Assembly (NCBI GenBank): GCA_903872345.1
Contig: CAIQKM010000109.1
Span: forward strand, 1-64,000
Direction: 5' to 3'
DNA from: an uncultured Verrucomicrobia subdivision 3 bacterium
GTDB lineage: Bacteria; Verrucomicrobiota; Verrucomicrobiia; Limisphaerales; UBA11358
DNA length: 64,000 nucleotides
This document shows positions 48,271 to 50,620 of this stretch, piece by piece (within the stretch, counting starts at the first letter, position 1; each line of letters opens with the position of its first letter). A program made the position numbers and the translations under genes. The notes below the pieces were generated by a model. The model was not told the origin of the DNA, searched no databases, and worked only from the letters and a program-made list of their open reading frames with translations.

Positions 48271-48366
48271 AACCACGAATGGACACCAATGAACACCAAT
48301 CAGCAGAGCCAAGGAGGCTCCCCGCTTTGGTTTTCAATTCGTGTGAATTCGTGTTCATTCGTGGTT
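48271..48366. repeat. 96-bp gene-less inverted-repeat unit with ends like the GxxExxY unit
   Basis: The left end 48271-48300 starts AACCACGAATGGACACCAAT. The right end 48337-48366 ends TTCATTCGTGGTT. The complement of the right end matches the left in about 25 of 30 positions. Between them lie 36 bp that code for nothing. The same 30-bp ends flank the GxxExxY gene at 49867-50310, so this is a MITE-like derivative or relic of that unit. The aldehyde dehydrogenase stop codon (48365-48367) lies within its right end. Confidence 0.75.
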
Positions 48367-49858
48367 AGTAAATCCGCAGATTGTCCACCATCACGCAGCG
48401 GCGGACGCGCGTGAACGTGCGCGGATTGGTGATGCCTTCGCCCGTCGGCGTGGCAATGCTGAAACTCAGGTAACCTTCGCCGCCCAGGCCGAGGCCGCAG
48501 GGTGATGCGCCGTTCTTGACGAACAGCGTGGTATCCAGCGCGCGCGCCATGGCGGTGATGGTTTCCACGTCGTGCGAATGGATGATGGCCGTGTGTTTGT
48601 AGCCGTGCTCGGCCTTGAGCGATTCCTCAATGCCTTCCTCCACGCTCTTCACGCGGACAATCGGGATGAACGGCATCATCTGTTCCTCGTCCACGAAGGG
48701 ATGCTTCGCATCCGTTTCCGCGAACAGCAACTGGGTGCCGGACGGCAGGTTGATGCCCGCAGCCTGCGCCAGTACCGAGCAATCCTTGCCGATGAAATCA
48801 CGGTTCACACTGGCATGGGCGCAGCCGCCGCCCTGCCCTTCCTTGAAGGTAAACGCCGCCTTGGTGAGCCGTTCGAGCTGCGCTTCGTTCAACTTCACGG
48901 CGCCGTTCTCGGACAGCTTCTGCATCAGTTTGTCGGCGGTGTTCTCCAGGACGAACACTTCCTTCTCGCCAATGCACAGGAGATTGTTATCAAACGCGCC
49001 GCCGGAAATGATGGCCTTCGCCGCGCGGGTGGGACAGCAGGTGTCATCGACAAACACCGGCGGATTGCCGGGGCCGGCGCAGATGGCGCGCTTGCCCGTT
49101 TGCATGGCGGCTTTCACCACCATCGGTCCGCCGGTGACGAGCAGCAGGCGGGTAAATTCGTTTTTGCAGAGGGCGTTGAAGGAATCCAGCGTGGGCTTCT
49201 CGATGATGCACGCGATGTTCTCAATGCCCGTTTCGCGGTAGATGGCCTCGTTGTAGGCCCGCACGGCGGCGGCGGCGCACTTGGCCGCGCTCGGATGCGC
49301 GTTGAACACCATCGCATTGCCGGCGGAGGCAATGTTGACAATGTTGCCGCTCAGGGTGGGAATGGAATGCGTGCTGGGGGTGATGCAACCCACCACGCCA
49401 AAAGGCGTGTATTCTTCCAGGGTGATGCCGTGGTCGCCGCTGCGGGCGTCGGGGCGCAGCCAGTCCACGCCGGGCACCAGCTTGATCAGGCCCAGCTTGG
49501 CGATCTTGTGATCCAGCCGGCCGATCTTCGTTTCGTCATATTCCAGTTTGCCCCACGCCTCGGCGTTCTTTTCCGCCAGCGCCTTGACGATCTCCTCGAT
49601 CTTGCGCCGGGCGGCCACGCCCTTCTCGCGCAATTGCAAAAAGGCTTCCTGCGCCGCGGCACAGGCTTCGTTCGCATCCTGAAACACGCCGAATTTGCCG
49701 CGCAACGCGACGTCGGCGCGGTTCACTTTGCGGGTGGAGCAGCCGCAGTTTGATGACGGCGCCGGGGCCGCCGGGGCGGGTGCCGTCGCTGCGCCGCCGA
49801 GGCGGCTGAGGACCTCAGACACCACGTCACGGATCAAAGTTTCGTTTACTGAACTCAT
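48365..49858 (-). CDS. pduP: CoA-acylating aldehyde dehydrogenase of the microcompartment (PduP/EutE type)
   Basis: The 497-residue protein begins with an amphipathic helix MSSVNETLIRDVVSEVLSRL followed by a flexible Ala/Pro linker. This is the classical encapsulation-peptide design of PduP. The catalytic Cys is in NNLLCIGEKEV near residue 290; the NAD-site motif is FGVVGCITPSTHSIPTL near 155, with GNAMVFNAHPSA after it. It oxidises the aldehyde released by the aldolase, probably L-lactaldehyde, with NAD+ and CoA to an acyl-CoA. Cys residues at SSNCGCSTRK in the linker are notable. It is separated from its operon neighbours on both sides by inverted-repeat units. Confidence 0.93.
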   Translation of the reverse strand: MSSVNETLIRDVVSEVLSRLGGAATAPAPAAPAPSSNCGCSTRKVNRADVALRGKFGVFQDANEACAAAQEAFLQLREKGVAARRKIEEIVKALAEKNAEAWGKLEYDETKIGRLDHKIAKLGLIKLVPGVDWLRPDARSGDHGITLEEYTPFGVVGCITPSTHSIPTLSGNIVNIASAGNAMVFNAHPSAAKCAAAAVRAYNEAIYRETGIENIACIIEKPTLDSFNALCKNEFTRLLLVTGGPMVVKAAMQTGKRAICAGPGNPPVFVDDTCCPTRAAKAIISGGAFDNNLLCIGEKEVFVLENTADKLMQKLSENGAVKLNEAQLERLTKAAFTFKEGQGGGCAHASVNRDFIGKDCSVLAQAAGINLPSGTQLLFAETDAKHPFVDEEQMMPFIPIVRVKSVEEGIEESLKAEHGYKHTAIIHSHDVETITAMARALDTTLFVKNGASPCGLGLGGEGYLSFSIATPTGEGITNPRTFTRVRRCVMVDNLRIY

Positions 49859-49866
49859 AAAAAATT

Positions 49867-50310
49867 AACCACTAATGGACACCAATAAACACTAATTAAA
49901 GAACCAAACGTTCCCATTCCAGTTTCGGTTGTTTAAAGTTTAAAATAACTCCAACCCTTAACTTGGTTATTCTCAAATAGTTTAACATCTGTCCTCGCTC
50001 TATCCCGGTAATCTGGTCAATCACTTTGGTATCAACCACTATGCGGTCAAACACAACCAGGTCAGGGACGAACAGCCCAACTTTGTTGCCTTTATAGAGA
50101 ATTTCAAAATTAACCTGCTGCTTGAACGGGATTTTCCTGATTCCAAGTTCAAGGGCCAGCGCATTTTCATAGGGTTTCTCATGTAAGCCATGCCCGATTT
50201 CATTCAGGACTTCCATGGCCGCACCAACAACCTGAAACACCTCTTCTTTCAATAGAAGTTTGGCATCCGGATTTGTATTCATTGGTGTGCATTGGTGTTT
50301 ATTCGTGGTT
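49867..50310 (-). mobile_element. 444-bp unit: GxxExxY gene between 30-bp inverted repeats
   Basis: Left end 49867-49896 (starts AACCACTAATGGACACCAAT) and the complement of right end 50281-50310 (starts AACCACGAATAAACACCAAT) agree in about 24 of 30 positions. The unit exactly fills the gap between the BMC-P gene (stop codon 50309-50311) and the aldehyde dehydrogenase start (49858). The encoded gene starts inside the right repeat and its stop overlaps the last base of the left repeat. This compact design looks like a mobile or formerly mobile cassette. A relative without the gene lies at 48271-48366. Confidence 0.7.
49896..50282 (-). CDS. GxxExxY protein inside the microcompartment operon
   Basis: The 128-residue protein matches the GxxExxY family (TIGR04256 type): the name-giving motif is GLHEKPYENALALEL near residue 33, followed by KIPFKQQVNFEILYKG. 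A likely nuclease-type core is VPDLVVFDRIVVDTKVI near residue 72, that is an Asp followed by D-x-K where most relatives have E-x-K. This resembles a PD-(D/E)xK active site with a conservative change. The end, GQMLNYLRITKLRVGVILNF, is also family-typical. The biochemical function of the family is not established. Its start ATG at 50282 lies within one inverted repeat of the flanking unit. It has no evident link to compartment metabolism. Confidence 0.88.
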   Translation of the reverse strand: MNTNPDAKLLLKEEVFQVVGAAMEVLNEIGHGLHEKPYENALALELGIRKIPFKQQVNFEILYKGNKVGLFVPDLVVFDRIVVDTKVIDQITGIERGQMLNYLRITKLRVGVILNFKQPKLEWERLVL

Positions 50311-50620
50311 ACGCCTTCGCGCTAAAAATTTGTTTCCCGAACACATCCACACTGTCCACGATGCCGATGATCACGGCGTCCACGGGGGAATCCTTCATCC
50401 CGCCGGCGAGCCGCGCGCTGCTGCCCTGGCAGAACAGCACCATCTCGCCTTCGCCACAGCCCACGCTGTCCACCGCCACGATGGTGTTCTGGCCCGGACG
50501 GAACTTCGTCGGATCCTTTTCATCCACGAGTTGCGGCCGCACGAGCAGCAGCTTGCGCCCGTTCATGGACGGGTCTTTCTTCGTGGCCACCAGCGTGCCT
50601 TCGACAATGGCTAAAAACAT
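50309..50620 (-). CDS. Microcompartment vertex protein BMC-P, copy 3
   Basis: The 103-residue product (MFLAIVEGTLVATKKDPSMNGRKLL) is an EutN/CcmL-type pentamer subunit with LVRPQLVDEK, TIVAVDSVGCGEGEMVLFCQGSSAR and VIIGIVDSVDVFG. It lies 81 bp downstream of a BMC-H gene, and its stop codon overlaps the right end of the GxxExxY unit by two bases. Three distinct BMC-P paralogues in one operon match the PVM compartment type rather than Pdu or Eut, which have one. Confidence 0.93.
   Translation of the reverse strand: MFLAIVEGTLVATKKDPSMNGRKLLLVRPQLVDEKDPTKFRPGQNTIVAVDSVGCGEGEMVLFCQGSSARLAGGMKDSPVDAVIIGIVDSVDVFGKQIFSAKA

Follow-up and report, generated by a model that had tools for sequence, protein, structure and literature searches.

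In the REPIN-RAYT systems, the RAYT protein is thought to act on REPINs (PMC3116915, PMC2817692). The cognate gene is flanked by the repeat, and dispersed inverted pairs and solo repeats are found in the same genome. Each repeat family has one copy of the gene, and repeat and protein types go together. A different kind of unit is the intervening sequence (IVS) with an S23 ORF in the rRNA of Coxiella: it has ~430-440 nt, one small ORF and ~28-30 bp terminal inverted repeats, and its mobility has long been suspected (PMC4990558). MITEs and classical insertion sequences also have terminal inverted repeats, gene-less derivatives and internally deleted copies.

The DNA analysed here is a stretch of 64,000 nucleotides from an uncultured Verrucomicrobia subdivision 3 bacterium, referred to as the window. 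It contains a 444-bp unit in a microcompartment operon, with one gene of the GxxExxY family between inverted arms. This element shares the listed features of the REPIN-RAYT systems, which it resembles in logic, and those of the Coxiella IVS, which it resembles in size and anatomy, but it lacks a defining feature of each and of the insertion sequences and MITEs. Its protein is a predicted PD-(D/E)XK nuclease, in contrast to the Y1/HUH transposase of REPIN-RAYT, and the repeat is not seen near the five Y1_Tnp loci of the genome. The arms consist of three heptamers, not of a palindrome, and the repeat pair is not conserved as a hairpin; furthermore, the inverted pair encloses the gene and lies in an operon gap. 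In comparison with the Coxiella IVS, the element is located in operon gaps instead of rRNA (no Rfam match at 20 loci), encodes GxxExxY and not the unrelated S23 protein, and has arms in which heptamers, and not a stem, are conserved. One copy (L164) is internally deleted here as well, but, unlike MITEs and insertion sequences, the element has neither a target-site duplication nor a DDE transposase, and its gene-less pairs have no common interiors. The protein is similar to the RecB/Cas4/lambda-exonuclease nucleases in predicted fold and motifs, including QxxxY; it differs from them in being stand-alone, 110-130 aa long and tied to cognate DNA repeats. In the open-access literature searched, GxxExxY is mentioned incidentally in two papers, PF13366 appears in one, TIGR04256 and the repeat strings are absent, and no description of the association of GxxExxY with repeats was found.

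The reading that we prefer, with a probability of about 0.58, is that of a ~440-bp minimal mobile element whose single gene encodes a RecB/Cas4-fold nuclease that moves both the element and gene-less arm pairs.

Structure of the element

The features of the locus are given in Table 1. Both arms match the pattern AACCACNAATNNACACNAATNNACACNAAT, that is, three CACNAAT heptamers spaced 10 bp, and this pattern had no match in 100 dinucleotide-shuffled versions of the window. A preliminary description of this DNA had noted imperfect 30-bp inverted repeats (about 24/30) around exactly one gene, and this was confirmed: the arms are identical at 24/30 positions, and only one ORF lies between them. All six differences are on the free fourth base of the heptamers or in the two-base spacers, and none is on the conserved positions (CRCNRAT, three per arm). 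The start codon overlaps one arm by two bases and the stop codon overlaps the other by one base, in agreement with the earlier account. It also holds that the unit fills the gap without breaking an operon gene: both the aldehyde-dehydrogenase-type (ALDH) gene and EutN are intact. The gene-less pair in the next gap and the 84 genome copies of the repeat were not noticed in the preliminary description.

Table 1. Positions of the element, its parts and its neighbours in the window
Feature	Position	Strand	Basis and remarks
Whole element, one gene between inverted arms	49867..50310	- (gene strand)	444 bp; arm match and 10-13 bp gap in relatives without the element
Arm 1	49867..49896	+	0 mismatches to pattern; 0 expected in shuffles
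Arm 1 heptamers	CACTAAT 49870-49876; CACCAAT 49880-49886; CACTAAT 49890-49896	+	Unit structure analysis
Arm 2, inverted	50281..50310	-	0 mismatches to pattern
Arm 2 heptamers	CACGAAT 50301-50307; CACCAAT 50291-50297; CACCAAT 50281-50287	-	Unit structure analysis
GxxExxY gene, 128 aa, predicted PD-(D/E)XK nuclease with QxxxY motif (RecB/Cas4/lambda-exonuclease type)	49896..50282	-	TIGR04256, PF13366, invariant residues, AlphaFold2 model, Foldseek
Gene-less pair, same arms as element; next operon gap	48271..48366 (48271-48300 +, 48337-48366 -)		Pattern match; absent from closest relative (G027)
Aldehyde-dehydrogenase-family gene, microcompartment operon, intact neighbour	48365..49858	-	PF00171
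EutN/CcmL shell gene, intact neighbour	50309..50620	-	PF03319; two bases of its TAA stop codon belong to the element

Empty and occupied sites

The ALDH gene was searched in 49 genomes of the genus, and the adjoining gaps were compared. In the closest relative (G027; ALDH 97% identical), EutN and ALDH are separated by 12 bp, and in most of the genus by 10-13 bp. This means that the 444-bp unit of the window is a clean insertion. Neither of the two insertions of the window is present in G027, where the empty sites read GCGAAGGCG-CAGTAATAAACC-ATG and GGATTTAC-TGAG-ATG. In G013, the same EutN-ALDH gap holds a degraded copy whose GxxExxY gene has an internal deletion.

The comparison of orthologous operons proposed in the preliminary description gave pairs of empty and occupied sites in several groups. 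Among related bacteria, some have an empty deoC|ALDH gap of 12-23 bp and others a full GxxExxY element in it; in further relatives, it holds short arm pairs (CACGAAT, CACAGAG, CACGGAG, CACTAAT, CACTTAT and CACGGAT units). Beyond these bacteria, an element of Bacteroides finegoldii occupies the radA|FAD gap, for which Parabacteroides distasonis has 13 bp; another, of Sphingomonas parapaucimobilis, occupies fabD|fabG, a gap that is short in S. paeninsulae and Rhizobium. Occupied gaps such as deoC|ALDH and ALDH|ALDH2 recur across many genomes.

Boundaries and placement

All-against-all comparison of 75 loci yielded 321 alignments spanning the whole element. In 183 of these, the DNA similarity ends no more than 12 bp from the arm end on both sides; both flanks are syntenic in 75 and one flank in 34. 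This means that the unit occurs in unrelated surroundings and that some insertions are old. Together with the empty sites and the inverted repeats around most GxxExxY genes, these sharp ends strongly support the earlier view of a discrete, minimal element. Mobility over evolutionary time is well supported.

Outside the arms, the sequence is T-rich on the left and A-rich on the right, with nothing further in common. A target duplication did not appear: in 69 elements there was no excess for any length of 1-9 bp, TA included. The upstream neighbour has the orientation of the GxxExxY gene at 59 of 62 loci and the downstream neighbour at 62 of 70. The upstream stop codon is mostly no more than ~10 bases away from the element and often overlaps the first bases of the latter, and the downstream start codon is usually 5-20 bases past the other end. 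The units thus occupy operon gaps in the sense orientation. As a distribution, this agrees with the suggestion that insertion is targeted to gaps between genes; as to targeting itself, selection against harmful insertions could produce the same pattern.

Distribution among GxxExxY genes

Among the first 80 homologues, which were found by a protein-pattern search, almost every gene is surrounded by the repeat of the window, mostly facing inward; this set is slightly biased because the search pattern MNTNPDAK overlaps arm-encoded bases. Relatives with the same arms are mostly from Verrucomicrobia-type bacteria. HMM-picked GxxExxY genes of the same genus at first seemed to be without this repeat. 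A motif-free test revealed that most of them have other inverted repeats with the same three-unit build; the families around GxxExxY include CCACAGAG, CCGCCAAG, CCGCAGAT, ACAAAG, ACAGGAT and more. Strong flanking inverted repeats (score >=13) are present at 121 of 149 GxxExxY genes and at 34 of 40 further ones (16/20 and 18/20). As for the controls, one of 121 neighbouring ORFs has a score >=14, and none of 49 EutN and BMC genes of the same size reaches 13. About half of the nine plasmid loci are without a clear repeat; clear ones are found on plasmids of Bacteroidota, Gemmatimonadota and Pseudomonadota. The design of the element is shared by most GxxExxY relatives tested, in several phyla.

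It should be mentioned that the flanking units face outward at a minority of loci (L033, L055, L065, L308, L314, L309, L322), as if the gene were between two short pairs. A GxxExxY gene on a Fusobacteria plasmid (L331) is flanked by a near-identical direct repeat, AGATTTAATCCGTGTACCTAT, and not by an inverted one. In several GxxExxY copies of G043, TAG codons are the sole interruptions, which might reflect read-through or the decay of related copies.

The S23/four-helix-bundle genes of the same genus (TIGR02436; L177-L206) have inverted arrays of short tandem units at both flanks, and were therefore dropped as a negative control. Their units (GTGATGA, GTTTCAG and similar) differ in sequence from those of GxxExxY, and 18 of 24 tested genes score >=13.

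Repeat copies and gene-less pairs

In the 6.5-Mb draft genome of the window, 84 copies of the repeat were found at <=3 mismatches, versus one for a reversed-pattern control. One GxxExxY gene of this genome has the arms of the window, and the two others are without them. Of the family CCACTAAT, there are 31 copies in G170, which has a GxxExxY gene inside the family, 10 in G177, one in G180 and none in 142 other genomes. The family CCACGAATCACACGAAT has 64 copies in G107 and eight in G129, both with a GxxExxY gene inside the family, five in G108 and 0-3 in the remaining genomes. Gene-less pairs and solo arms are thus abundant mainly where the cognate gene is present. An exception is G027: it has 28 copies of the family of the window, partly at sites common with the window genome, although both of its GxxExxY genes are without this repeat.

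The GxxExxY genes within one genome are diverse (median ~40% identity), most with their own repeat family, and each family has one gene-bearing copy per genome. The interiors of 13 gene-less pairs are mostly unrelated: only the arms are common. In orthologous gene-less pairs of G000 and G027 (L005/L286, L010/L284), the arms or the site are kept and the interiors can differ wholly. The window genome also has ~49 solo arms (L001-L030, L207-L246), some followed by the CGCGGAG family or a longer repeat with CAAGACGCGGAGAAGCGGGG.

The GxxExxY protein

The family assignment made earlier was upheld by the profile matches to TIGR04256 (1.2e-36; 125.6 bits against a curated cut-off of 35) and PF13366 (1.2e-33). 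In 78 diverse sequences, G30, G32, E35, Y38, D74, K86, N115 and F116 are invariant: Gly32, Glu35 and Tyr38 make up the G-x-x-E-x-x-Y motif. Q98 and Y102 of the QxxxY motif are nearly invariant. The AlphaFold2 model, for which six rows from plasmid records were left out of the alignment, has a pLDDT of 94.8. Its best Foldseek matches are lambda exonuclease, Cas4 SSO0001 and LHK-Exo (E ~1e-3, probability 0.99-1.0), and a sequence search of the PDB gave insignificant matches only. The PD-(D/E)xK-like core seen in the preliminary description is borne out by D74, K86, the QxxxY motif and the predicted fold, as for RecB/Cas4-type enzymes. The protein is thus predicted to be a RecB/Cas4-fold PD-(D/E)XK nuclease.

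The dN/dS values of ten GxxExxY pairs are 0.04-0.10. With the invariant residues, this indicates that the protein is under purifying selection. Identity as a phage or defence gene was rejected: PHROGs and PADLOC gave no match for GxxExxY, and a scan of viral contigs with one relative was negative.

Concerted change of the heptamers

The two A/G positions of the heptamers match between the arms in 88-97% of 75 loci, versus 52-59% expected (z 7-8). Agreement among all six heptamers of an element is seen at the second base in 58 of the 75 loci and at the fifth base in 65. At the spacer positions of the same loci, matching between the arms is not above chance. Concerted change at six sites with free spacers fits constraint from a sequence-reading protein, not from a hairpin; pairing was rejected as the conserved feature. 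In addition, the repeat type tracks the protein tree with 17 changes, versus 55 when shuffled (kinship of near-copies adds to this clustering), and the T/G last base changes only four times. The repeat and the protein thus co-diversify.

Possible mechanism and alternatives

The protein, probably as an oligomer, would bind the six heptamers, three mirrored at each end (here CRCNRAT), and would cut at or near the element ends (AACC...GGTT). The cut unit might be joined in again at a different place, in an AT-rich gap, with no target duplication. Gene-less arm pairs would be mobilised in trans by the same nuclease. Sense copies in operon gaps would persist because no gene is broken and the nuclease gene is transcribable from the host operon. 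The role of mobilising nuclease, which the preliminary description had suggested for GxxExxY, is plausible: we infer it from the conserved active site, the purifying selection, the co-diversification, and the occurrence of the repeats mainly with the cognate gene.

Some observations do not favour our reading. Besides the missing target duplication, a single gene-bearing copy per family and genome is unlike a spreading insertion sequence, and gene-less pairs without common interiors are unlike a MITE family. The absence of a duplication speaks against a standard cut-and-paste DDE element, and so do the unrelated interiors. Old, syntenic insertions are numerous, G027 keeps its copies without a cognate gene, and several plasmid GxxExxY genes are without a clear repeat.

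The main rival is that the unit is or was mobile and GxxExxY is now retained as a binding, processing or maintenance factor that acts on the heptamer arrays for a host function, movement being due to another activity or having ceased. The strong purifying selection, the old syntenic copies, the unrelated interiors and the single gene copy per family, as in RAYT, would fit this. We consider it rather unlikely: in related genomes the same gap is empty, full, or occupied by short pairs of different families, which suggests continuing turnover.

A homing-type process, in which the nuclease would cleave the unoccupied operon gap and repair from an occupied allele would copy the element into it, seems improbable. 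The nuclease is the only gene and some gaps are reused in many genomes (deoC|ALDH, ALDH|ALDH2), yet the element is found at many sites that are unrelated to one another, and the similarity does not extend beyond the element. The conserved sequence is inside the element, not in the target, and dispersed gene-less pairs exist.

Slightly more improbable still is an RNA-level element like the rRNA intervening sequences, whose arms would base-pair in the mRNA and undergo processing (by RNase III, for example), the DNA repeats serving the RNA. The sense orientation in operons and the likeness in size and terminal repeats to the Coxiella IVS (PMC4990558) are in its favour, but the spacers between the heptamers do not co-vary, so that pairing is not the conserved feature, and neither rRNA nor another Rfam family was found at the 20 loci.

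Movement of the repeats as REPs by a Y1/RAYT transposase, with GxxExxY as a passenger, is likewise improbable. The window genome has Y1_Tnp genes and REPINs are similar in layout (PMC3116915), but the repeat of the window is absent from the flanks covered for all five Y1_Tnp loci in this genome, on which ground RAYT was rejected as the mobiliser, and the repeat type tracks the GxxExxY tree. Many loci are from metagenome-assembled genomes, but chance or assembly artefact is excluded by the zero shuffle matches and by the same build in two genomes of one contig each (G170 and G129) and, in named isolates, on complete plasmids.

Implications

More broadly, GxxExxY might mobilise a new class of bacterial mobile elements that is widespread and uses a lone RecB/Cas4-fold nuclease to read heptamer arrays. 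The free-standing S23/four-helix-bundle genes with inverted tandem-unit flanks would then be a parallel class, offering an origin for the rRNA intervening sequences. This wider proposal is tentative, and we place it somewhat below even odds. What would be new here is the element family, rather than a proven new reaction.

GxxExxY, a common family, gains a testable role as a sequence-reading nuclease paired with its own repeats. This pairing would explain many dispersed repeats of the CACGAAT, CACAGAG and CGCAAAG types in these genomes. For protein-DNA specificity, the heptamer/protein pairs make up a natural data set. If mobilisation is due to the nuclease, this would add a transposition chemistry outside the usual recombinase types.
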